From the NCBI GenBank assembly GCA_007693685.1, contig REDB01000117.1, positions 1 to 34,483 of the forward strand: a DNA stretch of 34,483 nt, written 5' to 3'. Source of the stretch: Oceanospirillales bacterium. GTDB lineage: Bacteria > Pseudomonadota > Gammaproteobacteria > Pseudomonadales > Balneatricaceae. This document shows positions 1 through 28,614 of this stretch, piece after piece (the first letter of the stretch is position 1; each line of letters starts with the position of its first letter). A model generated the notes under the pieces. That model was not told where the DNA came from and ran no database searches. It worked only from the letters and a program-made list of their open reading frames with translations. Position numbers and translations under genes: made by a program.

Positions 1-428
1 GCTTGATTGATCTGCTCTAGGGTCATGCCATAGTTCAACTGGACAGCACCAATGTTGGCAATCAGAACCGTTGTGGGAGCTAGTTTTCGTAACGCGAAGC
101 TCTCTTTTGCTTCTGGTGAACTAAACATAACACGCTGAGAACCCACGCCCATGGCAACTTGGCAATGCTCTGCGGCAACCGCTAAATTATGGTTAATAGT
201 TCTAACCAGTTGATGATCGCCACCTGTCATGGACGAGATGAGTAACGGAAACCTCAGTTTTTTATTAAGAAACTCACAACTTGGGTCTATCTCATCTAAC
301 CCAACCTCAGGCAAAGCTCGATGAGTTAACCGTATTTCATCAAACCAGTTTCCCTGACGATCAGTCAGAGCATCTTTTTCGATAGCTTGAATATGTTCAA
401 TCTTACGATTATTGGTTTGATCGCTCAT
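1..428 (-). CDS. fni: Type 2 isopentenyl-diphosphate delta-isomerase (Idi-2), N-terminal part, cut by window edge
   Basis: Translating the minus strand from the ATG at 428 gives 142 residues that run off the left edge. The segment has the N-terminal hallmarks of the FMN-dependent type 2 IPP isomerase: an early R-K-x-x-H-I stretch, the block LTHRALPE, then FPLLISSMTGG and VGSQR, which belong to the flavin and substrate sites of the TIM barrel. The family interconverts isopentenyl and dimethylallyl diphosphate using reduced FMN. The start overlaps the stop of the HMG-CoA reductase gene as ATGA, so the two are surely translated together. This family is unrelated to the Nudix-type Idi-1 of E. coli and often travels with mevalonate-pathway genes. 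The C-terminal half is not visible, so intactness cannot be judged. Confidence 0.9.
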   Translation of the reverse strand, partial: MSDQTNNRKIEHIQAIEKDALTDRQGNWFDEIRLTHRALPEVGLDEIDPSCEFLNKKLRFPLLISSMTGGDHQLVRTINHNLAVAAEHCQVAMGVGSQRVMFSSPEAKESFALRKLAPTTVLIANIGAVQLNYGMTLEQINQ

Positions 429-1462
429 GACCGTTCCAGTCGAATATGTGCTTCCATGAGTTCACCTGGATTGGTTTGAGCGCTCAGCAATGAAAGCTCT
501 CCACATAATACGGTAGCCGCACAAATTGCCGCCAAGCGGCGAGCATTGGCACCCGGCTCGCGATCTTCACGGCATCCTAAACGGCGCAGGTTTTCTTCAA
601 CAAAGTCGATGCCTTTGCCATTACCTACACTACCTACAATAAGGTTAGGCAAGGTGCAGGAAAAATATAGGTCATCACCACGCACTTCAGCGTGCACAAC
701 ACCTTGTGAGCCTTCAATAATATTTGCCGCGTCCTGCCCTGTTGCCAAATAAAAACCTAGCAACATATTGGCATAATGAGCATTCGCACTGCGAATACCG
801 CCAGCAATCAGTGTTCCAATCAAATTTTTTCGCACATTCAACTCAACTACTTTTTCAGGGGTGGTGTTGAGTTTACGTTCACATAGGTCTCGTGAGATCA
901 GTATTTCACTAACAACATATTTACCACGACCCAAAATGCCGTTCACGGCGGTCGCTTTTTTATCTGAACAATAGTTAGCGGAAATAGAGCTATAGCGCAG
1001 CTGCGGATATTGCTGCAGTATCCAAGGGATAATTTTATCCGCTGCGTTGGTGACCATATTATGCCCCGATGCATCACCAGTAGTGAATTCCAGGCGCAAA
1101 TAGATCAAGTTTCCAACAATTTGGCTGTGCATATCAATCAAGCGCGCGAAACGACTTGAAGTAGCAACAACTTGATTGAGTTCAACGTCACGTAGCTTTA
1201 ACGACTGTAATGCCAGATGGGCTTCCATGGCATTATCAGCTTCAAGCAGAATGGAGCGCGTCATACGCTCATCAATCACGCTGGTCAGAATGCCATCAGT
1301 TAACACAGAGACACGTGCACCACGGCCTACTGAATGCCATAACGGCGTTTCATAGGTAGCCAAAGGCACACTGACTTTTTCATTCAGAGTCTGGCCGGTG
1401 ATTTTAAGCGGTCCTACCCAACGCATGGGAATCGGAGCTTGTAAAATTTTATGAGATTTCAT
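425..1462 (-). CDS. 3-hydroxy-3-methylglutaryl-CoA reductase (class I-like)
   Basis: This enzyme reduces HMG-CoA to mevalonate with two NAD(P)H, the committing step of the mevalonate pathway. Visible motifs, numbered from the upstream TTG at 1477, are the catalytic Glu43 in YETPLWHSVGRG, FTTGDASGHNM at 131-141, NYCSDKK at 168-174 with the catalytic Lys, GQDAAN at 247-252 with the catalytic Asp, and a C-terminal His344 in EAHIRLERS. The pattern TTGDA, DKK and the long C-terminal tail resembles class I (archaeal and eukaryotic) enzymes more than the class II type of Pseudomonas mevalonii. There is no membrane anchor, as usual for prokaryotes. The ATG at 1462 is chosen; the TTG at 1477 is possible, and neither has a good Shine-Dalgarno. 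The gene lies 47 bases after the regulator gene stop and overlaps the isomerase start by 4 bases. Confidence 0.95.
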   Translation of the reverse strand: MKSHKILQAPIPMRWVGPLKITGQTLNEKVSVPLATYETPLWHSVGRGARVSVLTDGILTSVIDERMTRSILLEADNAMEAHLALQSLKLRDVELNQVVATSSRFARLIDMHSQIVGNLIYLRLEFTTGDASGHNMVTNAADKIIPWILQQYPQLRYSSISANYCSDKKATAVNGILGRGKYVVSEILISRDLCERKLNTTPEKVVELNVRKNLIGTLIAGGIRSANAHYANMLLGFYLATGQDAANIIEGSQGVVHAEVRGDDLYFSCTLPNLIVGSVGNGKGIDFVEENLRRLGCREDREPGANARRLAAICAATVLCGELSLLSAQTNPGELMEAHIRLERS

Positions 1463-1509
1463 AGATACCCGAACCAAAGAAACGCGGAATTTTAGCTATC
1501 TGAGCCAGC

Positions 1510-3084
1510 TTATGCAATCTCTGCCTCTTTGATCAGCTCACCAAAACGCTCACTTAATAACTGATAACGCTGCTGCTGCTTGCCACTTAACGCACCATAA
1601 TGCAATTCACTGACAATTTCAGCACAACGCTTTACCACCTGCGGCTGGGCTACAGCTCGCCTTAAAGATTCGATGCCGGTTTGTAATAGGTTCAACCCTA
1701 CACCCGGATTTCCTGGATCGGCTTGCCAAGCTCGTTCAAACTCTAGAAAGGCATCCTCTATCGCTTTTTGTCTGAAAGAAAGCATCCCTTTTAGATTACA
1801 TTTACCCCATTCCACTGACGCCATCAATCGAGATACCTGCTGCTTTAACTCAAGAGCTTCTGCTGAAAAGCGTGTTGACTCTAAACCATCTGCCAACAGA
1901 TCAACCACACTCAGTTGAGCATGAAGCGGAATTTTCCGAAATTGCGCTAAGGCATCACCAGCGGCAAAATCAGCATTTTGATGCTCGCCATTTTGACGAT
2001 ATATTTCGGCAGCAATTAAGCGTGCACGAAATCGTATTTGTGGATCATCCATGCAATCATGTACGACAGATTCTAAAACACGAATCGCTTCTGCAATAAA
2101 GTCAGCATTACGATCTGGCTTATCGGCGATCATCTGCTGAATGACTCTGACTAAACCAAAATAATACTCGGGGTTTTGCAGTGATGTATGACGCGAATGC
2201 AGAACCGCTTGGCGAAAACCATCCACAGCAACACTTAACTCTTCAGAAAATGCCGCGCGATTACCTAACTCTCCCTGAAGTACGGGCATAGTCGGTTGCA
2301 ACATCACTGATTTTCTTAGTAGTGTGACACACTGGCTTCGCTCACCACTCAACCAATGGATTCTCGCCATAATTAAATAGGCTTCTTGGCAGACTTGCTG
2401 CTCTTCAATCACTTGAGACATCTCTTGACGAGCACGTTGGTAATCGGTCATCACAAAAGCTGTCATACCTAACGCAACATGTACCCAAGGCTTATCATGA
2501 GCTTGCCGGATACGCTCAAACACAGCTAAGGCTTTTTGGTATTGTTGCTGCTCTAAATAAATAAGACCTTTGATTCTAAAAATCAAAACACCCAATGCTG
2601 GGAACTGTTTTTGAATTCGTTCACATTCAGAGAGTGCTTCATCCCAAGCCTTTTCATCGCGAAATCGTTCAATTTGAGCGATACATCGTTTAATGCGCAA
2701 CTGCTTTTCTAACTGCGCACGTATTTTAAGTTGATCATAAGGCTTAGCAAGATAACCATCTGCGGATAATTCCGGTGATCCCATCAGCAAGTTTAGCTTC
2801 TCAGGATCAACTACCAGCAAAAAACAGGTCGAAAAGATCGGCTTACCCGCCGCTTTGAGTTGTTGTAGAACTTGTAGACCATTTTGTTCATAACGGCCCA
2901 TGTCATACACCAAGAAACACAGGTCAATTTTGACTTCTGATAACAGGCTAGCAGCCATATTAACTGACGAGGCCACTTCAATTTTCTGAAAGCCAATAGT
3001 TGTCAGAATCTGCCTGAGCTGCTCTAGCTCTTCCAGATTCTTTTCTACGATAAGGACTGTCTGATCAGAGAAAAGTGCTGTCAT
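1510..3084 (-). CDS. Response-regulator receiver domain fused to TPR repeats
   Basis: The 524-residue protein begins with a CheY-like domain (about 8-130). Asp61 in VYDMG is the likely phospho-acceptor, placed eight residues before the conserved Gly, and a conserved Lys lies in GYLAKPYD. The usual N-terminal acidic pair is reduced to Glu-Lys (VEKN), so metal binding and phosphorylation may be altered. From about 135 to the end there are repeated helix pairs typical of TPRs, for example RDEKAWDEALSECERI and QQQYQKALAVFERI. There is no DNA-binding or enzymatic output domain, which suggests signalling through protein contacts. No cognate kinase is in the window. It is the first gene of a probable operon with HMG-CoA reductase and the isomerase, but a functional link to isoprenoids is only an inference from position. 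Confidence 0.85.
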   Translation of the reverse strand: MTALFSDQTVLIVEKNLEELEQLRQILTTIGFQKIEVASSVNMAASLLSEVKIDLCFLVYDMGRYEQNGLQVLQQLKAAGKPIFSTCFLLVVDPEKLNLLMGSPELSADGYLAKPYDQLKIRAQLEKQLRIKRCIAQIERFRDEKAWDEALSECERIQKQFPALGVLIFRIKGLIYLEQQQYQKALAVFERIRQAHDKPWVHVALGMTAFVMTDYQRARQEMSQVIEEQQVCQEAYLIMARIHWLSGERSQCVTLLRKSVMLQPTMPVLQGELGNRAAFSEELSVAVDGFRQAVLHSRHTSLQNPEYYFGLVRVIQQMIADKPDRNADFIAEAIRVLESVVHDCMDDPQIRFRARLIAAEIYRQNGEHQNADFAAGDALAQFRKIPLHAQLSVVDLLADGLESTRFSAEALELKQQVSRLMASVEWGKCNLKGMLSFRQKAIEDAFLEFERAWQADPGNPGVGLNLLQTGIESLRRAVAQPQVVKRCAEIVSELHYGALSGKQQQRYQLLSERFGELIKEAEIA

Positions 3085-3232
3085 GGCCCATAATTCTTAT
3101 TAACCATCTGAAAAATAGCATGAATTTGAGCCATATTACTACTCTCAAGCCCTTTCAATCAGATGAACAGGTCATCAAGCCTTTGATAGCCTTGTTAGTG
3201 GACGAGCAAAATGGGTAGAAGCTTTGGGAAAT

Positions 3233-3261
3233 TACAAAACTGGGCGGTAGTTAACCGCCCA
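3233..3261 (-). terminator. Rho-independent terminator after argG
   Basis: On the minus strand a perfect 8-bp stem (TGGGCGGT, loop TAACT, ACCGCCCA) is followed by GTTTTGT. It lies 29 bases beyond the argG stop and separates argG from the regulator-mevalonate operon, which must then have its own promoter between 3085 and 3232. No convincing -35/-10 pair was recognised there. Confidence 0.8.
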
Positions 3262-3289
3262 AGCAATGTAAATGTATCTGCATGAAAAA

Positions 3290-4507
3290 TCAGAACTTAC
3301 GGCCCTTACTGGCAGCAATACGCATACGTAATGCATTCAACTTGATAAAGCCTTCTGCATCTTTCTGATTATAGGAGCCTGCATCATCTTCAAATGTCGC
3401 AATGCTTTCGTCGAACAAACTATCAACTGAACGACGACCCACAACACTAACCGCACCCTTATAAAGCTTCACGCGAACATCGCCGTTTACGTGACGCTGA
3501 GAGTAGTCGATCATCTGCTGAAGCATTTTACGCTCTTCAGACCACCAGAAACCGTTGTAAATCAACTTAGCATAACGTGGCATCAACTCATCTTTTAAAT
3601 GAGCGGCTTCACGATCTAGCGTCAGTGATTCAATACCGCGATGCGCCTTAAGCATGATGGTACCGCCTGGTGTTTCATAACAACCGCGGGACTTCATACC
3701 GACAAAACGGTTTTCAACCACATCTAAACGACCGATACCATTAGCACCACCGATTTTATTCAGTGTTTCCAGTACGGTTGCTGGACTCATTCGCTCGCCA
3801 TTAATAGCGACGATATCACCCTGCTCATAGGTTAATTCTAAATAAGTCGGCTGATCAGGTGCAGCTTCAGGGCTGACACTCCAACGCCACATCTCTTCTT
3901 CAGCTTCGGTCCAAGGATTTTCCAACATATCGCCTTCATAAGAGATATGCAGAAGGTTTGCATCCATGGAATAAGGTGATTTCTTTTTCTTGCTGCTGAA
4001 ATCAACAGGAATATTTCGCTCTTCGCAATACTTCATCAGCGTTTCACGAGAGGTTAAATCCCACTCACGCCAAGGAGCGATCACTTTAACACCAGGTTTT
4101 AATGCATAAGCACCTAGCTCAAAACGAACTTGGTCATTACCTTTACCGGTGGCTCCGTGAGAAATAGCATCGGCACCTGTTTCATTGGCGATCTCGATCA
4201 AGCGCTTAGCGATCAGAGGACGCGCAATAGATGTACCTAGCAGGTATTCACCTTCATAAATAGCATTAGCACGAAACATCGGGAAGACATAGTCACGTAC
4301 GAATTCTTCACGCAGATCTTCAATATAGATCTCTTTAACACCCAGTGCTTGTGCTTTCACACGCGCTGGCTCTACTTCTTCACCTTGGCCAAGATCAGCA
4401 GTAAAAGTTACCACTTCACACTGATAAGTATCCTGCAACCAACGCACAATCACAGAGGTATCCAAGCCACCTGAGTAAGCTAGAACAACCTTGTTGATGT
4501 CGGACAT
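3290..4507 (-). CDS. argG: Argininosuccinate synthase
   Basis: This enzyme condenses citrulline and aspartate with ATP to argininosuccinate, the penultimate step of arginine synthesis, in the cytosol. The 405-residue length fits the short-type ArgG family. The PP-loop ATP pyrophosphatase motif [10 protein letters not shown] is at residues 9-18, and the substrate-binding blocks [15 protein letters not shown] and [10 protein letters not shown] are present. The ATG at 4507 is preceded by GGGAG with a 7-base gap. The gene lies downstream of motY on the same strand, 146 bases away. With argD and argF a few kilobases to the right it makes an arginine gene neighbourhood. No recognisable E. coli-type ARG box was found in its leader. 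Confidence 0.98.
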
Positions 4508-4558
4508 ATTGACGCTCCCGAGTAAACGAACTGCGGTTATCTAAACCGAAGTACACCT

Positions 4559-4583
4559 AAGATTAAAAACGAAGATTAAAAAC
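4559..4583. repeat. Tandem 12-bp direct repeat in the argG leader
   Basis: AAGATTAAAAAC occurs twice with a one-base spacer (period 13), about 50-75 bases upstream of the argG start. It may be a regulator site or just an AT-rich duplication. It does not match the ARG-box consensus. Confidence 0.6.
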
Positions 4584-4653
4584 AAAGGCACATAATAGCA
4601 GATTGGCAAATTTTCTGCCTAGCCAGCCAAACTACCAAATCACAGATTAGCGC

Positions 4654-5514
4654 TTAATCACGCTCTAAACGTATGGTCACACGACGATTTCGTTGTCTGT
4701 TTTGTGGTGTATCATTTTCTACAACGGGATAACGATCACCATGAAAGCGCGTGACAATCATGGATTCTTCAACCCCTTTTGACACGAGATAGCGAGTAAC
4801 CTCTTCAGCGCGGCGTTGAGAGAGATCGCGCAACAGCAGTCGACGACCATCATTATCCGTATGTCCATCAACAAATATCTGCTGCACTGTTTCATCGGTC
4901 AATACATACTGAGCTATCAGATCCAATCTAGCACGAGTCGCATCTGAAAGCTGATGCTCGGCCGTTGGAAAGAGCACAGCGGTTCGTGCAATTTGACGAT
5001 AATTTACTGGAAGCAACTCTACTAAACATTCCAGAAAGTCGGCATAAGCTGCTTGGAAATTAACGGCCAGTACATTAACGGTAACGGATTGATTACTGCC
5101 ATACCAGTTATCACCACTAAAGGTTGGCATGAGTCCTTGATGCAGTGCCGCCAGAACACTGGCAGCATGTTCGCCTTGCACTCGAACTCTTCCTTGTTGA
5201 GCTTGAACATCGGTAATTCGTCTTGGTGCTATACCGGGCGCCCAAGGCGCTGCTTCTGCAATTAGACGCACACGACCATTCAGTTGCTGCGTTTGAGCAG
5301 GAAGAAGCATAAACTCGACATTCTCACCCGCTTCTTGCTCAAACAGCGCCTCACCAAAGGATGGAATTGGATGAATGAGCTGACAAACGAAGGGCGAGCC
5401 TTCCACGCTCCATTCAACACCATCAATTGGTGCGCGAAAGGTAACGGAATGGGCCAGTTGCATAGGCAAAAGTAATGATAAAATAAACAGTGCACGGCCA
5501 AACATAGGACGCAT
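4654..5514 (-). CDS. motY: Flagellar T-ring protein MotY (OmpA-like peptidoglycan-binding domain)
   Basis: MotY surrounds the base of sodium-driven flagellar motors and anchors the PomAB/MotAB-type stator to peptidoglycan. From the ATG at 5514 (286 residues) the protein starts with a signal peptide (MRPMFGRALF, a hydrophobic core, then a cleavage-like LAHS). An N-terminal MotY domain contains W-x-V-E-G-S-P-F-x-C and HPIPSFGEA. A C-terminal OmpA-like domain has FVDGHTDNDG, LSQRRAEEV and NRRVTIRLERD, which bind diaminopimelate. Longer starts (a GTG at 5559, an ATG at 5544) would put extra residues before the signal peptide and are less likely. It is transcribed toward argG. In Pseudomonas, from memory, argG, motY, pyrC and rnt are neighbours; pyrC is absent here. 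Confidence 0.9.
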   Translation of the reverse strand: MRPMFGRALFILSLLLPMQLAHSVTFRAPIDGVEWSVEGSPFVCQLIHPIPSFGEALFEQEAGENVEFMLLPAQTQQLNGRVRLIAEAAPWAPGIAPRRITDVQAQQGRVRVQGEHAASVLAALHQGLMPTFSGDNWYGSNQSVTVNVLAVNFQAAYADFLECLVELLPVNYRQIARTAVLFPTAEHQLSDATRARLDLIAQYVLTDETVQQIFVDGHTDNDGRRLLLRDLSQRRAEEVTRYLVSKGVEESMIVTRFHGDRYPVVENDTPQNRQRNRRVTIRLERD

Positions 5515-5648
5515 AACCTTGGGATTACAAAGAAATAGACTCATTAAGATGTCGGCCACTCAACACAAAGCTTGATCAAGATTTCACTCAGCAACATACG
5601 ACTGATAGAATAGTCTAACATTAACAGGAAAGCACCTAAGGATATTCT

Positions 5649-6293
5649 TTGAACCATCCTAATGAAAAGAGTTTGATGGCAGACCGCTTCCGCGGATATC
5701 TCCCCGTTGTCATCGATGTAGAAACAGCAGGCTTTAATTCGCAAACAGACGCCTTACTGGAAATCGCTGCTGTCATCCTGACGATGGATGAGAATGGGTA
5801 TTTGATGCCTGAGCGAAGATTCAGTGCAAACGTCACCCCTTTTGAAGGTGCTAACCTAGAGGCGTCCGCACTGGCATTTACCGGTATCGACCCTTGGTCA
5901 CCCGAACGCAAATCTATTTCGGAAGCGGATGCACTGGAACTGATCTTCAAGCCGATCCGCAAAGCGATGAAATCACAGGGGTGCAAGCGTGCTATTTTGG
6001 TAGGACATAACGCAACATTTGATCATCGATTTGTCAGTGCTGCCGCTGAACGAAATGGCATCAAACGCAATCCCTTCCACCCTTTCTCTACCTTTGATAC
6101 CGCTACACTTGCTGGGCTTGCTTGCGGACACACTGTCCTTGCTAAGGCCTGCGAAGTCGCCGGTATTAAGTTTGAAAATCGTAAAGCGCATTCAGCCATT
6201 TACGATACAGAAAAAACGGCTGAGCTCTTTTGCATGATCGTCAACCGTTGGAAAGATATGGGCGGATGGGACTTGGTGTTACAGACGCGTTAG
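5649..6293 (+). CDS. rnt: Ribonuclease T, DEDD-family 3'-5' exoribonuclease
   Basis: RNase T trims the 3' ends of tRNA (removing the terminal A of CCA) and of 23S, 5S and other small stable RNAs. The 214-residue product carries the DEDDh exonuclease motifs: VVIDVETAG near residue 20 (Asp and Glu), [12 protein letters not shown] (Asp), and [10 protein letters not shown] (His and Asp). The start is TTG at 5649. AAGGA stands six bases before it, and this start gives the same N-terminal length before DRFRG as E. coli Rnt. An in-frame ATG at 5676 is the alternative. It is divergent from motY, and its stop overlaps that of grxD by four bases in convergent orientation, an arrangement without room for a terminator. 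Confidence 0.96.
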
Positions 6294-6646
6294 TTAGCGT
6301 CTGTACCTTCTGCAGGTGTCGCAGGCGCTACTTTAGCAGCCGCTTCTTTGACCAGGGTCTCAAGTTCACCAGTGGCTGCCATTTCGCAAATAATGTCACA
6401 TCCACCGACTAACTCACCGTTGATCCACAATTGTGGAAACGTTGGCCAATTAGCGTATTTAGGCAGTTCACTACGGATATCTGGGTTTTCCAGAATATTC
6501 ACGAATGCAAAACGCTCGCCGCAACCCATCAATGCTTCAGTTGCTCGCGCAGAAAAACCACACTGAGGGAAACGCGGCGTACCTTTCATGTAAAGCAGAA
6601 TAGCGTTAGATTCGATCTGCTCTTTGATAACATCTTCTACACTCAT
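6290..6646 (-). CDS. grxD: Monothiol glutaredoxin, Grx4 type
   Basis: Monothiol glutaredoxins bind a bridging [2Fe-2S] cluster with glutathione and, with BolA partners, carry iron-sulfur clusters. The protein (118 residues) has the signature active site CGFS after KGTPRFPQ, the cis-Pro block WPTFPQLWI, and the GSH-binding GGCDI. The ATG at 6646 follows AAAGGTG at the right distance, so the in-frame extension back to 6679 is not used. The C-terminal tail after EAAAKV is Ala/Pro rich ([12 protein letters not shown]) and slightly longer than in E. coli. Transcription probably starts near 6690 from the promoter described at 6698-6726. Confidence 0.97.
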
Positions 6647-6683
6647 TGAAGCACCTTTTGATAGTTTGACTAAAACCAATGAA

Positions 6684-6697
6684 GTTTACTGGTAAAC
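6684..6697. promoter_or_regulatory. Operator-like palindrome at the grxD transcription start
   Basis: GTTTAC-TG-GTAAAC is a perfect 6-bp dyad directly downstream of the predicted -10 box of grxD, where a bound repressor would block initiation. No matching regulator is encoded nearby and the regulator family is unknown. Confidence 0.45.
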
Positions 6698-6726
6698 ATT
6701 ATACCCTACTAAAATAGTCAGGTAAA
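6698..6726 (-). promoter_or_regulatory. Sigma70-type promoter of grxD
   Basis: On the minus strand TTTACC (6726-6721) and a perfect TATAAT (6703-6698) are separated by 17 bases and preceded by GGG. The -10 box is about 52 bases upstream of the grxD ATG, which would give a leader of about 45 bases. Confidence 0.65.
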
Positions 6727-6851
6727 ACGATTAATATTTCTTAGAATATAGGGGATGCTGCTGTAATTTCAATGCGTCACAGACAATTTACACGGAAACT
6801 TAAACCAGTGATCAAAAAAGTCAATTGCCAAACCGATCACTTAAGCCTAGA

Positions 6852-6908
6852 ATGACTCCTTTTTTGGCAGCTCTGGCTGCCTTTTTGCGTTGTAGGGAGA
6901 TAAGCTGA
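6852..6908 (+). CDS. Possible 18-codon leader ORF of argD
   Basis: An ATG at 6852 opens an 18-codon frame (MTPFLAALAAFLRCREIS) whose TGA directly abuts the argD ATG. It spans the whole terminator hairpin and has Arg codons CGT and AGG just past the hairpin and T run. It also reads through the argD Shine-Dalgarno. No good Shine-Dalgarno precedes it, so it may be fortuitous; if translated it would couple argD translation and antitermination. Confidence 0.25.
   Translation: MTPFLAALAAFLRCREIS
6866..6886 (+). terminator. Terminator or attenuator hairpin in the argD leader
   Basis: GGCAGC-TCTG-GCTGCC followed by five T forms a textbook intrinsic terminator only 22 bases before the argD start codon. 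The argD Shine-Dalgarno (AGGGAGA, 6894-6900) lies after it. It either ends a short upstream transcript or attenuates argD. Transcripts starting upstream of it must read through to express argD unless a promoter is hidden in the last 20 bases, which is too short. Confidence 0.75.
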
Positions 6909-8102
6909 ATGGCCATACAACCTCTGATGAATACTTACAATCGTCTGTCTGTAGCCTTTGATTATGGTCAAGGGGCGTGGATCTATGACACGGACGGTAA
7001 CAAATATTTAGATGCACTGAGTGGTATCGCAGTGACTGGACTGGGCCATGCACACCCAGCCGTAACTGAAGCGATCTGTCATCAGGCTGGAAAACTTATT
7101 CATTGCTCAAACCTCTATACTATTCCGCTGCAACAACAACTTGCTGAAAAATTGACGCAAGTATCTGGAATGGACAACGTATTTTTTGGTAACTCCGGTG
7201 CAGAAGCCAACGAAGCAGCCATAAAAATCGCACGTCGTTATGGTCATAGCCGTGATATTGATAAGCCTGCCATCATCGTGATGGAAAGTGCCTTCCACGG
7301 TCGTACATTGGCAACACTGAGTGCAACAGGCAACCGCTCATCTCAAGCAGGCTTTGAACCTCTGGTGAGTGGTTTTATTCGCGCTCCGTTTAATGATCTT
7401 GATGCGGTCAAAAATATTTTGCGTCACAACAACAATGTTGTCGCAATTTTTGTAGAACCGATTCAAGGTGAAGGCGGTATCAATGTGCCTAGCAACAATT
7501 ACCTTGAAGGCCTTCGCGAAATCTGTGACCAACACGAATTATTGTTAATGCTTGATGAAGTTCAGTCAGGTAATGGTCGTACTGGACGTTATTTTGCGTA
7601 TCAACACACAGCGATCATGCCCGATGTTGTCACTACAGCTAAAGGTTTAGGTAATGGATTTCCAATTGGCGCATGTCTAGCACGTGGCAAAGCGGCTGCA
7701 GTATTTGGTCCAGGCACGCACGGAACCACCTATGGGGGAAATCCTTTGGCCTGTGCAGCTGCATTAGCCGTGGTGAACACCATTGAGAAAGACAATTTAT
7801 GCCAACACGCTGAATCATTGGGCCAATATATTTTGGATAGCTTTCACATTCAGCTAGCTGACAAGCCCTATATTAAAGAGATTCGCGGTAAAGGCTTAAT
7901 GATTGGTATTGAGCTAACTGATGCTGGTACAGAGCTTGCTGTCTTAGCCAAGGTTAAAGGCGTGTTACTGAACATTACCGGTGGTGGTCGCGTAGTACGT
8001 ATGCTTCCACCTTTAATTATGAATCAAAATGAAGCGGATCTTCTGGTGAATACGGTCTCCAGTTTGATTCGTGTTTATGCCGGTGAAGACACGGCTAGCT
8101 AA
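6909..8102 (+). CDS. argD: Acetylornithine aminotransferase
   Basis: This PLP-dependent class III aminotransferase converts N-acetylglutamate semialdehyde to N-acetylornithine, and in many bacteria also serves lysine synthesis as succinyl-DAP aminotransferase. In the 397 residues one sees the phosphate-binding GNSGAEANE at 94-102, the cofactor Asp216 in [12 protein letters not shown], and the Schiff-base Lys245 in [13 protein letters not shown]. The N-terminal NTYNRL and D-x-x-G-x-x-YLD pattern is typical of ArgD. The start follows AGGGAGA by 8 bases. It is followed by argF after 62 bases, probably one operon. Its leader holds a terminator hairpin and a possible leader ORF. Confidence 0.96.
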
Positions 8103-11562: not shown

Positions 11563-12633
11563 ATGGAAAAGCTCCTCGTTGACCTTCTTCAGCATCAAGA
11601 TAATCGCCTACGTATCTTTGATATGGGGCGACGTATTGAAAAGCTATCCATTGACCAGTTTACTCAGATTGAGAAAGCGGAAATTCCCTACCCTAGCCCT
11701 TTCCTGCATCATGCGTGGATAGGCTTGTTAATTTGGAGTCCGGCTGCAAAAGAGCAAAACCTGATCTGGTTTTTGAAGCTACCATTAGATGAGCAAGGCT
11801 ACTTAGTACAGGCAGCTAGAGACGATATCGTTAACCGTCTGCTACAAAACGTTATTAATCCTGAGTCGACAGAGGATGCGTTAAAGGATAATCCTTTTTC
11901 TTTTACTCCTGACCCTGAAAAAATGGCCTGTTTTCATGCCAAAGCTAGCCGTATTCTGCATACACCAGCATCTCGTTACTACGAGGAAGTGCAGCAGTAT
12001 ATGGCAGGTCAGCATCCGCTTGAGCATTGGAGTCATTTAGGGCTACAAGGCATTGCAGATTATGTGATGCGCTTAGATCAAGGGCAGAATAATCAGCAGC
12101 TTTGTGACATCTTAAACCGTTTGCCAGACCCTTTATTAATGACACTCTGTCGAATGCTGGAGCATGTTCAGATAGATCATCGTCTGCAAACGGCCTTGAG
12201 TAAACTGCTATCAAGTCAGTTAGCGACTAAAGATACTGCATCTGAAACGCTAATAGAAAATCTACCAGAAACACTGGCTGCTTGTATCCGTGGTCTTTCT
12301 AATAGTATTGATATTGCAGGTCGGGATAGGGTACTAGATCAAGTACTGCAAACACCCTATGCCTTTGAAGCAGAGGTCATTGCAGCCTTGGCAACGCGTT
12401 GTCACGATAGCTTGATGACGCCTGCTAGGCTACTGCACTTTTTGGAATGTCTAGCTAAAGGAAAAGCAGGGCAACAAGGGTTTAATCGTATTCTAAGTGA
12501 CTTAATGTTTTTGCCCGATATGCGCCTGCAAATTCTCGCAGCATTCAGAAATCCAGCACGCAGCGCATTATTAAGCCAAGCGATCGAGGAGATGCTTGGC
12601 TCTAGACTTGCAAGTTCAGGACAAACTCACTGA
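11563..12633 (+). CDS. DUF3549-family protein, function unknown
   Basis: The 356-residue soluble protein has an N-terminal block typical of DUF3549 as I recall it: RIFDMGRRIEKLSIDQF, PYPSPFLHHAWIGLLIW and IWFLKLPLDEQGYLVQAARD. The rest is helical with no recognised catalytic motif, signal peptide or membrane segment. The start follows AGGA by six bases and lies one base after the DAHP synthase stop, so the two are translationally coupled. Its 3' end overlaps the convergent dopE-like gene by 18 bases. No role is established that I know of; its coupling to DAHP synthase is only positional. Confidence 0.8.
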   Translation: MEKLLVDLLQHQDNRLRIFDMGRRIEKLSIDQFTQIEKAEIPYPSPFLHHAWIGLLIWSPAAKEQNLIWFLKLPLDEQGYLVQAARDDIVNRLLQNVINPESTEDALKDNPFSFTPDPEKMACFHAKASRILHTPASRYYEEVQQYMAGQHPLEHWSHLGLQGIADYVMRLDQGQNNQQLCDILNRLPDPLLMTLCRMLEHVQIDHRLQTALSKLLSSQLATKDTASETLIENLPETLAACIRGLSNSIDIAGRDRVLDQVLQTPYAFEAEVIAALATRCHDSLMTPARLLHFLECLAKGKAGQQGFNRILSDLMFLPDMRLQILAAFRNPARSALLSQAIEEMLGSRLASSGQTH

Positions 12634-13410
12634 GGTATCTTCTGGCAATTGCAGCTTGAAGCCCTGTGCATCAAGCTGCAATTGAGCCTGAGCCCTTAGT
12701 CTTTCACGTATCTGTGTTCCTTTCGGTTTAGTCAGATAGTAAAGCAGATCTTCCGTGATACCCTTCTGCTTAGCAAACTCTAATATAAATTGAGCCGTGG
12801 TATTGTCCTGCTGATCTTGAATTCCCTTGACGACGGGCTTGTGTAACGACTCACCTCTTCTTACGCGCTGGCATAACTGCTCATAAGCATAACAAAAAAC
12901 AGGCTGAACCTGATTTGCTTCCTCACTACGCAATCTAAACCATCCCACTTCACGACCTGCAAGATAGACAGCGATGTGACTCCATTGATGGGAGGCTGGA
13001 TCGCCTGCCTTGTGACAAGCTTCATGGTAAGCTGCCGTATCACTAGGCAAACCAAAATCACCCTGTAGGTCACGCAAAATGGCTAGAAACTCAGACACGG
13101 TTGGCATCCACGCCAGCGTTTCTTTACAACGATTAACTGCTGCGACTAAGGCAGATTCACTATAACCTTCAAGACTCAGCGCCCATTCACGCTTGGCAAG
13201 ACGGATTTCATTTTCAGTTTCAAAGCAACTCTTAAATTTATGACCGTAAATAGCCATAAATCGAGCAAATATCATGTTGACGTGGGCTTTGGTCGCAACC
13301 GAGATTTCGCGGTGAGGCTGTGAATCCTCACCAGTTGGTATCCTCGATGTCCATGATGGACGCGGTAACCCGTTTTCGGTTTTCGCGAGTATCTCTTCGG
13401 GTGTTTTCAT
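12616..13410 (-). CDS. dopE: Lambda P-like replication protein, DopE-type helicase loader candidate
   Basis: The 264-residue product resembles phage replication protein P: a helical segment FARFMAIYGHKFKSCF, then EWALSLEGYS, a region similar to P-family proteins (CKETLAWMPTVSEFLAILRD) and YHEACHKAGDP. Lambda P carries the host replicative helicase to the origin. A chromosomal pair derived from lambda O and P has been described as DopC and DopE, proposed to replace DciA or DnaC in some gammaproteobacteria; this pair fits that description. No other phage gene is nearby. The ATG at 13410 follows AGGT by seven bases and lies inside dopC, giving an 83-base overlap. The next in-frame ATG (13275) would lose 45 residues. 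Confidence 0.7.
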   Translation of the reverse strand: MKTPEEILAKTENGLPRPSWTSRIPTGEDSQPHREISVATKAHVNMIFARFMAIYGHKFKSCFETENEIRLAKREWALSLEGYSESALVAAVNRCKETLAWMPTVSEFLAILRDLQGDFGLPSDTAAYHEACHKAGDPASHQWSHIAVYLAGREVGWFRLRSEEANQVQPVFCYAYEQLCQRVRRGESLHKPVVKGIQDQQDNTTAQFILEFAKQKGITEDLLYYLTKPKGTQIRERLRAQAQLQLDAQGFKLQLPEDTSVSLS

Positions 13411-14206
13411 TGCTTTGACCTAGCGGTTGTTTTTCATTTGTGCGACTTGAGGCTTCTCGCGACTGTTTATGGACCCATTCACGCTTAACCCAAGCTAAAA
13501 ATTTTTGATCCCAATTAGTTTCTTTACGATCTTTATCTAAATAATAAAGAATAAACTCATCCAAACACTGTTCTGCAAACGCAGGTGTAATAGATTGGCG
13601 TGACAGCATATCAAAGAAGGCTGCACTGGGTTTCCAGCCTAACTCCATAGGGACTAGACGCTGATTGCGCTCTTCATGACGGTCAAATATTTGTTGCAAC
13701 TCATCTTTACCACGTCGCCATCCAGCATTACCGCCAAAGGTTGGTGCTGCAGATCGCTTCGGGCGCATTTCTCTAGAGGGTGGTGGCGAGTCATAAACTG
13801 GCAGAGAGTTAGCAGGTGGCTCAGGTCTAAAGTCAGCTCTATGCTGTGCTATAGGTTCTGATAAATGCTCGCCGATAGAAGCGTTTGCAGACTGATGAGA
13901 TTGAGCCGCTTTATGTGATTTAAATCGATATAACTTTAAAGTTCCATTCTGACCTTTAATCGCCTGCAACAAACCTTGTTGCTCCAAACTTTGGAGCGTT
14001 TCTGAAACCACTTCTGAGGTCCAAAAAGGTGTTAATCTAGACAACTGACCCGGAGCAAGCAGAAGCATCTCACCCTTATCATCCGCAGCAGCATGCTGAC
14101 GAAACAGGTCATCAAGAATACTTAACAACAGTGCTTCATCAGCACCATAACGCAGCGCTAAAGAAGGATAAAATAGTATCGGTCTTTCTGGAAACAACTC
14201 ACTCAT
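13328..14206 (-). CDS. dopC: DnaT/lambda O-like primosomal protein, DopC-type
   Basis: The product (292 residues from the ATG at 14206) has an N-terminal winged-helix-like half (ELFPERPILFYPSLALRYGADEALLL, then TLQSLEQQGLLQAI). A long polar linker (about 95-165) follows. The C-terminal DnaT-type domain reads LGWKPSAAFFDML, ITPAFAEQCLDEFILYYLD, NWDQKFLAWVKREWVH, and the tail is basic. DnaT domains bind single-stranded DNA and partner with helicase loaders. GGA six bases before 14206 supports this start over the ATG at 14212. The gene follows the CBS-domain gene by about 50 bases and overlaps dopE by 83 bases. The DopC name rests on the gene pair and domain type, not on a search. Confidence 0.7.
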   Translation of the reverse strand: MSELFPERPILFYPSLALRYGADEALLLSILDDLFRQHAAADDKGEMLLLAPGQLSRLTPFWTSEVVSETLQSLEQQGLLQAIKGQNGTLKLYRFKSHKAAQSHQSANASIGEHLSEPIAQHRADFRPEPPANSLPVYDSPPPSREMRPKRSAAPTFGGNAGWRRGKDELQQIFDRHEERNQRLVPMELGWKPSAAFFDMLSRQSITPAFAEQCLDEFILYYLDKDRKETNWDQKFLAWVKREWVHKQSREASSRTNEKQPLGQSNENTRRDTRENRKRVTASIMDIEDTNW

Positions 14207-14210
14207 TATC

Positions 14211-14257
14211 ATTCCAAGGTTTACTTAACAAATAACAGGGATGTGAACGCTTGGAAT
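14211..14257 (-). promoter_or_regulatory. Stem pairing the dopC ribosome site with the end of the CBS gene
   Basis: ATTCCAAG, starting at the last base of the CBS-gene stop codon, and CTTGGAAT, which contains the GGA ribosome site of dopC, form a perfect 8-bp stem with a 31-base loop. A ribosome finishing the CBS gene would melt it, which suggests translational coupling. Confidence 0.4.
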
Positions 14258-16212: not shown

Positions 16213-17817
16213 TTGTCTGACTATTTGACGACCATCAACCTTAAAGGTAAGTGCCTCTGTATGAATTTTATACCTGAACGCATGGCGCCATTAAGAGCAA
16301 GGCGAATGGGTATCGATACCCATCATGAGCCAACGCTCTACTTACGTGCCGAAAGTCCTGTTTGCCGTTCTGAAGGCTTTGAAAGTCTTTCTCGCATTCT
16401 TGCTACCAGTCATGGTGATAAGTCTATCGTTGCTTCACTCAATATTATTACCAGTGATTTAATCGCGGATGATGAGGTAGGTTTTTCTGAAGCTGCATGG
16501 CGTCGATTAAAAATTGAACCTGACGCACCGGTATGGCTCTCTCATCCTCGCCCAGTTCAGTCACTGTCGCATGTTCGTTCTAAAGTGTACGGGCACACCT
16601 TAGATCAAGATCAATTTAAAGAGATCATCAACGATATCGTTGCCGGACAATATGCTGAAGTTCATCTTGCCGCTTTTATTACCGCTTGTGGTGATGAAAA
16701 ATTAAACGATGATGAAATCACCTCATTGACCCGCGCCATGGTTGAATCCGGTAGTCGCATCGATTGGCAACTACCTGTGGTATTGGATAAGCATTGTGTT
16801 GGCGGACTTCCGGGTAATCGAACCACGCCCATTGTCATCTCGATCTTAACGGCATGCGGTATCACCATTCCAAAAACCTCATCACGCGCTATTACCTCAC
16901 CGGCGGGTACTGCTGACACCATGGAAACCCTGACAGAGGTGAGCTTGTCTTTAGAGGAGATGAGAAAAGTCGTGGGTCAAGTTGGTGGATGCCTTGCTTG
17001 GGGTGGCTCAGTAAAACTGAGTCCTGCTGATGATCTATTGATACAGGTAGAGCGAGCACTGGATATTGATAGCGAAGGACAGTTGATTGCTTCGGTGTTA
17101 TCAAAAAAAATCGCCGCTGGGGCAACGCATGTCTTAATCGATATTCCCGTAGGCCCAACCGCTAAGGTTCGTAGCCAAGAAGCAGCGGAAAAATTAGCTG
17201 CTAGTTTTCGTTCAGTTGCCGAGCAGCTAAATCTGAATATTCGCATCCTGTTTACCGACGGTTCTCAACCCGTAGGTCGTGGAATCGGCCCTGCGTTAGA
17301 AGCTAGAGATATTCTAGCCGTGTTGCAAAACCAACCTGACGCTCCCAATGACCTTCGCGATCGTGCTGCCTTAATTGCGGGCGAGATGCTAGAAATGGTG
17401 CAGGAGATGAAACCTGGGGAAGGCAAAGCGACTGCCCTAAAAGTGCTGGAATCAGGTGCTGCATGGAATAAATTTATGGCCATTTGTGCAGCTCAAGGTG
17501 GCATGAAGTCGCCCCCCATTGCCCCCTACCGCTATGCACTTATCTGCAAACAAGACGGTATTATCAGCAATATCGACAACCGAAAGTTATCTAAGGTTGC
17601 CAAACTAGCGGGCGCTCCTGCCGATCCAGCAGCAGGTGTTGAGATGCATGTCCATTTGCAACAACTGGTTACCAAAGGCACTCCTCTAATGACGATTCAT
17701 GCAGAAAGTGTAGGTGAGCTGAACTATGCCGTGGATTACTTGAGCGAACATACCGATGTTATTTCACTTTCACCTGCTGAATGCATCGACGACAACGTTA
17801 AATATAAGGAAGCATGA
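16213..17817 (+). CDS. AMP phosphorylase-like / thymidine phosphorylase family protein, type 2
   Basis: The 534-residue protein has the archaeal-type layout. An N-terminal beta domain of about 80 residues is followed by the nucleoside phosphorylase core with DKHCVGGLPGNRTTPIV (192-208), PKTSSRAITSPAGTADTMETL (220-240) and GQVGGCLAWGGSVKLSPADD. A C-terminal lipoyl-like domain closes it. Archaeal relatives phosphorolyse nucleoside monophosphates to base plus ribose 1,5-bisphosphate; bacterial members are usually annotated putative thymidine phosphorylase. The TTG at 16213 gives the full N-terminal domain but only a weak ribosome site; ATG at 16261 is an alternative. Its stop overlaps the start of the PRPP synthetase gene, implying a joint salvage role. 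Confidence 0.85.
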   Translation: MSDYLTTINLKGKCLCMNFIPERMAPLRARRMGIDTHHEPTLYLRAESPVCRSEGFESLSRILATSHGDKSIVASLNIITSDLIADDEVGFSEAAWRRLKIEPDAPVWLSHPRPVQSLSHVRSKVYGHTLDQDQFKEIINDIVAGQYAEVHLAAFITACGDEKLNDDEITSLTRAMVESGSRIDWQLPVVLDKHCVGGLPGNRTTPIVISILTACGITIPKTSSRAITSPAGTADTMETLTEVSLSLEEMRKVVGQVGGCLAWGGSVKLSPADDLLIQVERALDIDSEGQLIASVLSKKIAAGATHVLIDIPVGPTAKVRSQEAAEKLAASFRSVAEQLNLNIRILFTDGSQPVGRGIGPALEARDILAVLQNQPDAPNDLRDRAALIAGEMLEMVQEMKPGEGKATALKVLESGAAWNKFMAICAAQGGMKSPPIAPYRYALICKQDGIISNIDNRKLSKVAKLAGAPADPAAGVEMHVHLQQLVTKGTPLMTIHAESVGELNYAVDYLSEHTDVISLSPAECIDDNVKYKEA

Positions 17818-18704
17818 TGAGCACACTTTTCTACAATCTAGATTCTGATACAGCCCTCGCAGCTCATATTTGCCGTACACTTGAGGCTGAGGCAGGCACT
17901 TTAGAAGTTCGACACTTTCCTGATGGTGAAAGCTACTTACGTATTCATGATGCATGCAAAGATCGCAAGTGCGTCATTTTTTGCAACCTGTTTCAACCCG
18001 ACAAGAAAACCCTCAGATTAATTTTCTTAGCCGATACACTTCGCGAGTTAGGGGCTAGTCAGGTGTTATTGGTTACACCCTACTTAGCTTATATGCGGCA
18101 AGACAAGCGCTTCCATGAGGGTGAATGTGTTAGCTCCAAACCTTTCGCACGGCTACTATCCCAAGCAGTTGATGGCTTAATTACCATTGATCCTCACCTG
18201 CATCGCTATCACTCATTATCGGAAATTTACTCAATTCCCACTCTTGTGGTTCAAGCAGCTCCCTTAATTTCTGACTGGATCGCCAAAAATATTCAATACC
18301 CTGTATTAATTGGACCGGACAGCGAAAGCGAGCAATGGGTATCTGAAGTGGCGCGTTTAGCCAATGCACCTTTCCAAATTTTAGAGAAACAACGTTTTGG
18401 AGACTATCAAGTATCGGTGTCCATACCAGAACTGGAACCTTACAAAAACCATTCTCCTGTATTGGTCGATGATATTATTTCCAGCGGTAGAACCATGCTA
18501 GAGACCATTGCACATTTAGATCATGCTGGGTTAAGCCGCACAACTGCCATAGGCGTACATGGTATTTTCGCTGGTAGCGCCTATACACAACTGAGTGAAA
18601 AGGCTAATGTGGTGACCACCGATTGCATTCCTCATATCAGTAATAAAATTGAGACAGGGTCAGCACTCGCAGATGCCGTGCGTAAACTTCAGCTAAGAGG
18701 CTGA
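17817..18704 (+). CDS. Ribose-phosphate pyrophosphokinase, archaeal-like (class III) type
   Basis: PRPP synthetases transfer pyrophosphate from ATP to ribose 5-phosphate. The 295-residue protein is shorter than the housekeeping enzyme (about 315). It shows RHFPDGESYLRI, TPYLAYMRQDKRF, IDPHLHRY, the flexible loop EKQRFGD, and the PRPP-binding VLVDDIISSGRTM. The loop sequence and the KRFHEGE segment look like archaeal class III enzymes rather than E. coli Prs with KRRPRANVS. Two ATGs overlap at 17814 and 17817; the second has AAGGA at six bases and overlaps the upstream stop as TGATG. It is likely a second PRPP synthetase dedicated to the upstream phosphorylase; a housekeeping prs should exist elsewhere. 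Confidence 0.88.
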   Translation: MSTLFYNLDSDTALAAHICRTLEAEAGTLEVRHFPDGESYLRIHDACKDRKCVIFCNLFQPDKKTLRLIFLADTLRELGASQVLLVTPYLAYMRQDKRFHEGECVSSKPFARLLSQAVDGLITIDPHLHRYHSLSEIYSIPTLVVQAAPLISDWIAKNIQYPVLIGPDSESEQWVSEVARLANAPFQILEKQRFGDYQVSVSIPELEPYKNHSPVLVDDIISSGRTMLETIAHLDHAGLSRTTAIGVHGIFAGSAYTQLSEKANVVTTDCIPHISNKIETGSALADAVRKLQLRG

Positions 18705-24437: not shown

Positions 24438-25562
24438 ATGAAGCCGTTCTCAGTCTCAAACAAAATTAACCTATCCGTTATTCTAGCTCTAATTTTAACC
24501 GGCGTAATGATTGCATGGGTTATAAGTGGATCTATCTATACCTCAGCGACCGATCAACCTGATTTTGCTCCGGACCCTGAGCAAACCTCTCTTCCTAAAG
24601 TTGAAACTCAATATATAGATGCCCAACGCTTTCAGCCCAGCATTAAGCTTCAAGGACAGTTAGAACCGATTCAACAAACTCAAGTGACAAGCCGGATTCA
24701 AAGTTATATTGAAACCCAGCATGTGAAGCTTGGAGAATATGTTGATCAAGGAACCCTGCTGATTACACTGGATGCGGAAAACCGCTTATCACAACTCACT
24801 CGGGCCGAAGCAGAACTTCGTGTTGCACAAGCTAATCAGAGAGCTACAGAAAGACTAATTCAGCAAAATCTTGGTTCTGAAACTGAGCTATTGCGACAAC
24901 AAGCGGCAACCGCAGCTGCTTTAGCGGAACGTGATCGTTTGAGGCTAGAATTAAAACACACTGAAATCAGAGCACCGTTTTCAGGTTTCATTGAAGAACT
25001 ACCCTATGAAACAGGTAGTAGTATTCAAGCGGGCGATCATCTTGTTCACTTGGTCAACACACAACAACTGAAAATGACGGGGCAAGTTCCTCAACAGCAG
25101 GTTAAGCTGCTTTCCACAGGCTTACCCGTTGAGGCGACTCTGTTAGATGGACGCAAACTCGGGGGGCAAGTAAGTTTTGTTGCTTCGTTGGCAGAACCCC
25201 AAACACGCAGTTTTCGAGTTGAAGCCCTTGTCGATAATGCAGAAAAACTGCGGCTAGCAGGAGCTAGTGCCACACTGAGCATTCAATTACCTGATCAATT
25301 AGCACATCGTTTCTCTCCTGCTCATCTTAGCTTAAACAATCAAGGTAGAACCGGTATTAGAATCATCGATTCCGACAGCAAAATTGTCTTTCATGAAGTA
25401 GAAATTTTGAGTTTAGACACTAATGGTGTATGGGTTTCAGGTTTGCCGGATAGGATTGAACTGGTGACACAGGGGGCTGGCTTTGTTGAATTAGGGCAGC
25501 AAGTTGAAGCGGTTAGAATAGAGGCACATAAGGTGGAACCTCCTTATGTGGAGCTAAGGTAA
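24438..25562 (+). CDS. RND efflux periplasmic adaptor (membrane fusion protein), system 1
   Basis: The 374-residue protein has one N-terminal membrane segment (about 12-31, ILALILTGVMIAWVISG) and the usual adaptor order. Lipoyl halves flank a short alpha hairpin (GQLEPIQQTQVTSRI; LGEYVDQGTLLITLD; hairpin about 115-165; TEIRAPFSGFIEELPYETGSSI). A beta-barrel (VEATLLDGRKLGGQVSFV) and a membrane-proximal domain follow. It links an inner-membrane RND pump to an outer-membrane channel. AAGGA lies eight bases before the ATG. The permease gene begins one base after its stop. There is no lipobox, in contrast to the adaptor of system 2, and no outer-membrane factor gene nearby. Confidence 0.9.
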   Translation: MKPFSVSNKINLSVILALILTGVMIAWVISGSIYTSATDQPDFAPDPEQTSLPKVETQYIDAQRFQPSIKLQGQLEPIQQTQVTSRIQSYIETQHVKLGEYVDQGTLLITLDAENRLSQLTRAEAELRVAQANQRATERLIQQNLGSETELLRQQAATAAALAERDRLRLELKHTEIRAPFSGFIEELPYETGSSIQAGDHLVHLVNTQQLKMTGQVPQQQVKLLSTGLPVEATLLDGRKLGGQVSFVASLAEPQTRSFRVEALVDNAEKLRLAGASATLSIQLPDQLAHRFSPAHLSLNNQGRTGIRIIDSDSKIVFHEVEILSLDTNGVWVSGLPDRIELVTQGAGFVELGQQVEAVRIEAHKVEPPYVELR

Positions 25563-25563
25563 T

Positions 25564-28500: not shown

Positions 28501-28614
28501 TGGTGGACTCAGTTATCCAGCGCTATCGCGGGAGGGCTGGCTTTCGCTACCTTTTTAACGCTTTTATTAACTCCTTGTATGCTGCTGATTGGCACGAAAG
28601 TGCTGAAGCGTTAA
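25564..28614 (+). CDS. RND-family efflux permease, system 1
   Basis: The 1016-residue proton-driven pump has the two-fold RND layout: membrane segment 1 near 12-30, a large periplasmic loop (GRMPMKVPG, ISKRAGANIIDTNAQVR), segments 2-6 between about 335 and 490, a second loop (PDIEPDTLQLQVRARG, QDMGPGQGKPVELLVSAD, AARFGADVLSVGNAVQLITNG) and segments 8-12 from about 840. In segment 4 the reading is GMLVDGAIVVSE, so the first Asp of the AcrB Asp407/Asp408 pair is kept and the second is Gly, as in some RND subfamilies. Substrate is unknown. The gene is coupled to the adaptor and overlaps the stop codon of the convergent system 2 pump. Confidence 0.93.
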   Translation: METLIRAAMLRSRATLTLFVFLLVGGMAAYQAIPKEANPDVVIPMMYISMSLEGISPEDGERLLVRPMEQELRALEGIKKMTSISSEGHASVMLEFDAGFDPQSALQNVREKVDSARSKLPAEADEPRVNEINVALFPVLSVALSGPVTESELVYLARRLKEAIEGIPEVLEVDIGGDREDLLEIIVDPQVLDSYQIDYAQLFSLVSNNNRLVAAGSLDTGAGRMPMKVPGVIETLEDVLSIPVKVYGDTVITFGDIAILQRTFKEPTGFARINGQPGIVLEISKRAGANIIDTNAQVRQVIESARSLMPESIQINYIMDQSDDVNMMLDELLNNVLTAVVLVLILIIATMGLKSALMVGLTIPGAFLTGILLVWAVGYTLNIIVLFSLILVAGMLVDGAIVVSELADRYLREGLSPSEAWLKAASRMSWPIIASTATTLSVFIPLLFWPGVVGEFMKYLPATVILCLLASLAMALVFLPTMGSVLSTQHTQKEFSAGLFTQAYRSLLAKLLKAPWLTLLGMMLLIMLIYSAYGRFNHGVEFFPDIEPDTLQLQVRARGDLSVYEKDRLLQRIEARLNHYPEIESMYARSFAMPSMQMGSDVIGILQFRLIDWHERRDSSAIIQTMRDLTADIHGIELEFRAQDMGPGQGKPVELLVSADRPELAEQAVELIRQQMLDIGGFSDIEDDRTLPGIEWRLEVDREAAARFGADVLSVGNAVQLITNGLMLATYRPEDATDEVDIRVRVPQNWRSIDQLSQMTINTSRGQVPLSHFVTLQPTPRVGNLHRVDGVRTITLQAEIAEGYRLDERLNELSLSFDQLPEGVVIRTGGEDAEQREAAAFLTTAFIIAIFLMLFVLLIQFNSFFQTALVLSAVVFSTAGVLLGLLINGQSFGIVMVGMGIIALAGIVVNNNIILIDTYNQMRLEGLSPYDAALETGALRLRPVLLTAITTILGLLPMVLGINVNLMEPSLGVGAPSTQWWTQLSSAIAGGLAFATFLTLLLTPCMLLIGTKVLKR

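Follow-up and report, generated by a model that had tools for sequence, protein, structure and literature searches.

Does a gammaproteobacterium that carries mevalonate genes use them in place of the MEP pathway or beside it? The question is raised by the first genes of a 34,483-nucleotide stretch of DNA (the window), which is one end of contig C25 in a Nitrincola genome of 2.85 Mb (276 contigs, 92% complete). Its relevant features are the following, the enzyme names being predictions from model matches.

1..428 (match 3..428), minus strand: type 2 isopentenyl-diphosphate isomerase, first 142 codons, the rest on contig C27 (TIGR02151)
1..55, no strand: assembly overlap with contig C27 (locus L005), where the operon continues (exact 55-base identity)
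425..1462, minus strand: short-form class I HMG-CoA reductase of 345 aa lacking the N-terminal domain (PF00368, TIGR00533, E-K-D-H)
1510..3084, minus strand: response regulator receiver and TPR protein (PF00072 and TPR families)
3240..3262, minus strand: terminator-like hairpin after argG (consensus match only; 5 in the stretch against 3.1 expected)

The reductase matches PF00368 on the minus strand with an E-value of 1.2e-81. Residues E43, K173/K174, D249 and H344 (P0001 numbering), which we take to be the catalytic residues, are invariant in 19 aligned reductases, and the E, DKK, GQD and C-terminal H stretches of two solved reductases, presumably of class I, align with them. The original prediction of a class I-like reductase with an E-K-D-H set is borne out in this respect, and the ATGA overlap that it described between the reductase and the type 2 IPP isomerase is present in the sequence. 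Its extent of the gene to position 1477 holds in that the reading frame is open to a TTG there (425..1477, in an open frame of 356 aa, with up to 11 codons ahead of the ATG); conservation, however, places the start at the ATG at 1462, where the relatives begin. Against TIGR00533 the protein scores 270.7 bits, under the cut-off of 441.8. PF00368 is matched from position 40 of its 368, and the best three solved chains only from residue 92 to 112, which indicates that the N-terminal domain is lacking; neither this domain nor the ENVIG motif ahead of the catalytic core, both of them class I features, is seen in the profile and solved-chain alignments. The enzyme appears to be a short variant of class I that is common to many genomes, and not a typical member of the class. 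Its predicted structure was poor (mean pLDDT 58) and was set aside.

The response regulator/TPR gene shares the strand of the reductase, whose ATG it precedes by 47 bases; 6 of 19 representative loci have it directly ahead of the reductase, and it stands outside the pathway. The hairpin at 3240..3262 is a possible upstream border of the transcript. Elsewhere in the window, overlapping lambda replication protein P-like and DnaT-domain frames lie among ordinary chromosomal genes (12616-14212, minus strand), a pyrimidine nucleoside phosphorylase-like protein of 534 aa has a four-base overlap with a ribose-phosphate pyrophosphokinase-like protein (16213-18704, plus strand), and two RND efflux pairs, each of a membrane fusion protein and an AcrB-type transporter, stand in opposite orientation with the transporters tail to tail at about 28611 (24438-32797).

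The isomerase reaches 137.8 bits over the first 136 of the 338 model positions of TIGR02151, short of the cut-off of 281.3, as the gene is truncated by the end of the contig. Contig C27 opens with 55 bases that are identical to the window's first 55 bases read on the opposite strand; joining the two gives an isomerase of 343 aa. The genes that follow on C27 are listed by their positions in L005.

675-1880: mvaS, HMG-CoA synthase (TIGR01835)
1880-2872: GHMP1, a GHMP kinase
2850-3818: GHMP2, a GHMP kinase
3845-4840: mvaD, diphosphomevalonate decarboxylase (TIGR01240)
4827-7169: polB, DNA polymerase II (NCBIfam match over the cut-off)

The synthase (527.8 bits) and the decarboxylase (311.7 bits) both exceed the cut-offs of their models. 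Beyond polB, C27 continues with genes read as rimK and a succinylglutamate desuccinylase-like gene, and one N. schmidtii contig (L096) has the identical order from argG to the desuccinylase-like gene; therefore, the join of C25 and C27 is not an assembly accident. A search of the genome for GHMP proteins gave three matches, all on C27, so that GHMP kinases occur only in the operon. The further mevalonate genes that the original prediction suggested looking for are accordingly at hand as a synthase, two GHMP kinases and a decarboxylase; five steps of the pathway are assigned, and the phosphomevalonate kinase step falls to GHMP2 by elimination only.

The assignment of the two kinases depends on which evidence is followed. 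Mevalonate kinase models match both proteins best: TIGR00549 gives 142.9 bits for GHMP1 and 150.3 bits for GHMP2, both under the cut-off of 163.05; GHMP2 reaches 151.1 bits against PRK03926 (cut-off 403), and TIGR01220 (phosphomevalonate kinase) gives 62.9 bits for GHMP2 and 31.2 bits for GHMP1, both under the cut-off of 165.7. No curated model calls either protein a phosphomevalonate kinase. The residues are more discriminating. K9, E157 and D168 of GHMP1 are invariant in 12 aligned sequences. Among the named loci, which are the best 80 of at least 562 relatives, the motif Lys of GHMP1 is present in 63 of 64 (one unreadable) and its Glu stands 11 residues before the Asp in all 52 readable cases (12 unreadable). 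In the GHMP2 proteins of the same best 80 of at least 562, the place of the Lys is taken by Ser (54), Asn (7), Thr (4) or Cys (1), with no Lys in any of the 66 readable sequences (three unreadable), and that of the Glu by His, Val, Ile or Met in all 64 readable sequences of 69 (five unreadable). This Lys and Glu are catalytic residues of mevalonate kinase. Since they are kept in GHMP1 and gone in GHMP2, the best reading is that GHMP1 would be the mevalonate kinase and GHMP2, by elimination, the phosphomevalonate kinase.

Swapped roles, with GHMP2 as the mevalonate kinase and GHMP1 as the phosphomevalonate kinase, are unlikely but keep some weight from similarity: GHMP2 is nearer to the solved mevalonate kinases (116.6 bits to 4hac, against a best match of 68.9 bits for GHMP1), and its model, made for the N. 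schmidtii protein (pLDDT 92.7), superposes on archaeal mevalonate kinases with Z of 34 to 37. The structures do not tell mevalonate kinase, phosphomevalonate kinase and galactokinase apart, and so do not settle the substrate: Z is 36.6 for MKbur (8teb), which we read as an archaeal mevalonate kinase, 36.1 for human galactokinase, 35.9 for Listeria Lin0012 and 31.9 for the pneumococcal phosphomevalonate kinase (3gon). Against the swap stands the motif itself, with Lys and Glu in GHMP1 and both missing from every readable GHMP2 among the best 80 of at least 562 loci. If GHMP2 is indeed the phosphomevalonate kinase, automated surveys may score such gammaproteobacterial pathways as lacking this enzyme. 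A 2026 review reports that none of the Legionella analysed has a canonical phosphomevalonate kinase and raises the question of alternative enzymes (PMC13001223); GHMP2 would be a candidate type of such an alternative.

The operon is not confined to this genome. By the named-genome scan, the reductase is 99% identical to that of N. schmidtii and 96% to that of N. lacisaponensis, and its next relatives among the best 80 of at least 562 belong to Marinobacterium, Neptunomonas, Neptuniibacter, Amphritea, Motiliproteus, Balneatrix and Pokkaliibacter; from these names the family is read as Nitrincolaceae. PF00368 was found in all 116 family genomes searched, in a few as fragments, and 97 of the 116 reach a completeness of 90% or more with contamination of 5% or less. 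The 80 named loci (best 80 of at least 562) are all colinear in gene order: all six genes are present in 69, 60 of these with polB in addition, while nine lack the downstream genes, probably at contig ends, and two are Labedella loci with reductase and synthase alone. The representative loci, which cover all 16 genera of the family (three loci for Nitrincola) and one genome of another family of the order (G225), have the six genes in order in 18 of 19. In L088 the decarboxylase is missing from the stretch taken, L085 is broken by stops or frameshifts, and in L077, from a congener (G365), about 3.3 kb separate GHMP2 (ending at 8198) from the decarboxylase (starting at 11496). Chance is excluded by the E-values, the matches in 116 of 116 family genomes and the colinear order in 80 of 80 of those best named loci. 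The original prediction of mevalonate-pathway genes in a gammaproteobacterium is confirmed. Five family members (G356, G396, G390, G394 and G393; L036-L040) have an extra long-form reductase beside the short copy.

Outside the family, PF00368 was found in the order in 88 of 293 genomes, 76 of them belonging to other families, and in the class in 73 of 369 genomes, 72 over the cut-off. In other orders, at least 14 families have members with the short reductase form. Twenty class loci of other orders (13 families) always show the order reductase, isomerase, synthase, GHMP1, GHMP2, decarboxylase, with some genes missing; both kinases are present in 16 of the 20 (12 families) and all six genes in five, and L226 has the reductase alone. 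Judged by these matches, the predicted operon type is spread over the class and is not an oddity of the window.

The origin of the genes was sought in the reductase, which is 66 to 93% identical across representatives of the family and order and 50 to 70% identical to the short forms of other gammaproteobacterial orders. Reductase trees were built with 74, 49 and 29 rows, drawn from sequences other than named archaeal or eukaryotic ones; the 49-row tree leaves out L225, L212, 17 of the 25 long forms and six other actinomycete forms, and the 29 rows were drawn from those 49. The 49-row and 29-row trees join the family with Endozoicomonadaceae and G225 of the same order with moderate support; in the 74-row tree, the smallest supported set that contains the family and Endozoicomonadaceae also includes three sequences of other orders. 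GC and GC3 of the gene are within the range of its neighbours. By this composition and the two trees that join Nitrincolaceae, Endozoicomonadaceae and G225, the gene looks resident in the family, which it follows. An older transfer into an ancestor is likely, since DXR is kept in 26 of the 33 reductase-positive genomes that were tested in the order's other families.

A recent transfer from an archaeon or a eukaryote into this lineage is highly improbable. The best solved structures for the reductase by sequence are the archaeal 6hr7 (222.7 bits), followed by the human 2q1l and 1dq8 (about 208 bits each), and this ranking is the evidence in favour; the identities within the class, the placement with Endozoicomonadaceae and G225, the neighbour-like GC and GC3 and a decarboxylase nearest to solved bacterial mevalonate diphosphate decarboxylases all argue against it. 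The suggestion that archaeal- or eukaryote-like motifs point to transfer is not upheld, as the nearest relatives found are gammaproteobacteria and the gene appears to follow the family; the reductase tree that had been proposed as a check agrees on the latter point within its sampling, which omits named archaeal and eukaryotic sequences, and is model-dependent in its placement of actinomycetes.

In all three reductase trees, four actinomycete short forms nest with L080 and L091, read as Balneatrix and Pokkaliibacter. AU tests were run on groups picked once a tree had been seen. Under LG+F+R4 with 29 rows they rejected a gammaproteobacterial clade without actinomycetes (p 0.018) and a Nitrincolaceae clade without actinomycetes (p 0.040); under a mixture model with 74 rows neither clade was rejected (p 0.856 and 0.633), and the constrained trees were likelier than the free one. 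The nesting of actinomycete reductases by Nitrincolaceae thus appears to depend on the model. An HMG-CoA synthase tree (27 rows, midpoint root) places Labedella next to Pokkaliibacter and the two remaining actinomycetes next to a different Nitrincolaceae genus, with bootstrap values of 39 to 42. A joint reading of kinases and trees, which we hold to be about evenly balanced, is that GHMP2 founds an unrecognised lineage of phosphomevalonate kinases, as an archaeal-type mevalonate kinase paralogue from which the motif Lys and Glu disappeared and which came to carry out the second phosphorylation, and that the actinomycete clusters may owe their reductase and HMG-CoA synthase to a Balneatrix/Pokkaliibacter-like Nitrincolaceae donor.

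Whether mevalonate replaces or supplements the MEP pathway, the point that the original prediction had left open, was addressed through the MEP genes. DXR (PF02670) gave no match and IspH and IspE were not detected in the genome itself, the latter in the GHMP kinase search, and DXS is present at C204 in a 595-aa frame. In an assembly of 276 contigs and 92% completeness these absences are weak singly, and it is the family-wide absence that carries the argument. IspH was found in 0 of 116 family genomes. For DXR, the family yielded marginal partial matches in 11 of 116 genomes (E-values of 2e-4 to 9e-4); three of these 11 were scanned, and all three are homoserine dehydrogenases. As a yardstick, 33 of 40 genomes of the order outside the family, seven of seven reductase-negative controls among them, gave E-values of 5.6e-40 to 1.4e-49 with the same model. 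DXS was matched in 114 of 116 family genomes, in 108 better than 1e-30; the other eight, with weak or no DXS match, are assemblies of 50 to 950 contigs. Its product DXP also feeds thiamine and pyridoxal phosphate synthesis, which would explain why DXS is retained, and DXS without DXR is what a mevalonate user might be expected to keep.

Beyond the family, 33 of the 76 reductase-positive genomes of the order were tested for DXR, and the seven without it are G225, G209 and five of family f39. G225 has the short reductase and no DXR, whereas in G005 of that family DXR is present and the reductase absent, so that routes differ within one family. Two members of family f16 (G209 and G288; single-contig genomes of 5.2 to 5.3 Mb) carry the reductase in a 436-aa frame and no DXR, and may be another mevalonate user in the order. 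DXR gave no match in 8 of 8 named gammaproteobacterial genomes with the operon and was missing from 25 of the 26 short-form genomes of other orders tested (14 families), G688 being the one that has it; the short-form genomes G445, G614 and G647 stand outside the 26 scored. G453 and G525, in which the form of the reductase is unclear and which were not counted as short, are also without DXR. The earlier view that mevalonate genes are known from few gammaproteobacteria was therefore an understatement, given PF00368 in 73 of 369 class genomes and the absence of DXR from 25 of 26 short-form genomes outside the order.

Frames of about 750 to 1000 aa with a reductase domain were also seen in other class members and in f39. 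DXR was missing from all five f39 genomes tested (of 10 reductase-positive) and from seven of eight class genomes with frames of 753 to 797 aa, and this long-frame group is perhaps a second, separate replacement of the MEP pathway. In G513, a 762-aa frame (L190:409-2697, minus strand) fuses a full-length reductase domain (residues 26-399), which we read as probably class II, to GHMP N and C domains (524-752) that look like a mevalonate kinase. In G633, a long-form reductase is fused to a C-terminal APH-type phosphotransferase domain (L188:1291-3831, plus strand), and that genome keeps DXR.

With the reductase in 116 of 116 genomes, IspH in none, no convincing DXR and DXS kept, mevalonate is the predicted replacement of MEP in the family; convincing DXR and IspH are absent from both the genome and the family and IspE is undetected in the genome, so the choice between replacing and supplementing falls on the former. 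That the operon is a supplementary or secondary-metabolism route beside a working MEP pathway, for which one could cite the dual mevalonate and MEP routes of bacteria such as some Streptomyces and Mycobacterium marinum (PMC13001223), the retained DXS and the DXR kept by 26 of 33 reductase-positive genomes in other families, is extremely improbable and largely refuted by the loss of IspH and of convincing DXR across all 116 genomes, 97 of them of the completeness and contamination given above, and by the undetected IspE.

It is thus very probable that the six-gene operon, whose 5' end is in the window, is the sole predicted route to IPP in this Nitrincola genome and in Nitrincolaceae. In the proposed scheme, acetoacetyl-CoA, supplied by a putative thiolase encoded elsewhere, would be converted to HMG-CoA by the synthase and then to mevalonate by the reductase; GHMP1 would form mevalonate 5-phosphate and GHMP2 the 5-diphosphate, from which the decarboxylase would yield IPP, and the type 2 isomerase would convert IPP to DMAPP. 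DXS would be kept to supply DXP for thiamine and pyridoxal phosphate. The pathway was probably gained before the family split, after which MEP would have been displaced and the operon passed on within the family. A whole bacterial family has apparently given up the standard gammaproteobacterial route to isoprenoids for the mevalonate pathway, with which animals make their isoprenoid building blocks, and has kept DXS, which makes it a natural case where DXS may serve vitamin synthesis only. Under this scheme the bacteria should be insensitive to fosmidomycin and other MEP inhibitors and sensitive to statins.

The mevalonate pathway with no or incomplete MEP genes was reported for 541 of 4,400 species (PMC10663253); the pathway was reported in Wenzhouxiangella (PMC7691419) and as absent in Venatorbacter (PMC8560859). 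Nitrincola or its family was not named in connection with mevalonate among the literature matches listed, a set in which subscription journals are mostly not covered; the family may well stand in the species tables of PMC13001223 or PMC10663253. Actinomycete mevalonate clusters, known as the Streptomyces CL190 type, are another near system: G843 and G1039, of the class of Labedella, and Labedella itself have the same short reductase (62 to 69% identity) beside HMG-CoA synthase (50 to 58%). For the remaining mevalonate genes of G843 and G1039 identity is only 24 to 44%, and their order differs. The short form is rare in that class (3 of 296 genomes, including Labedella, on which the search was centred), and the two Labedella genomes have DXR matches.

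The same chemistry and gene set are found in Staphylococcus, Streptococcus and Enterococcus, with which the synthase (TIGR01835) and decarboxylase (TIGR01240) model types agree. These cocci have a class II reductase and a recognised phosphomevalonate kinase; here, by contrast, the reductase is of the class I short form and GHMP2 matches TIGR01220 weakly (62.9 bits, cut-off 165.7). With about 240 bits for 6e2s and 5v2l against 99.7 bits for 3lto, presumably the Legionella enzyme, the decarboxylase stands much nearer to the first two. Coxiella and Legionella are, like this family, gammaproteobacteria: they are described as having mevalonate and not MEP genes (PMC9803151), and most mevalonate-pathway genes of Coxiella as essential by transposon sequencing (PMC9997736). 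They are intracellular, whereas the family studied here is represented mostly by isolates and metagenome bins, one record being an Osedax symbiont (by titles). The kind of system is already known, and what would be notable in Nitrincolaceae is the family-wide replacement, the conserved short-reductase operon and the second kinase.
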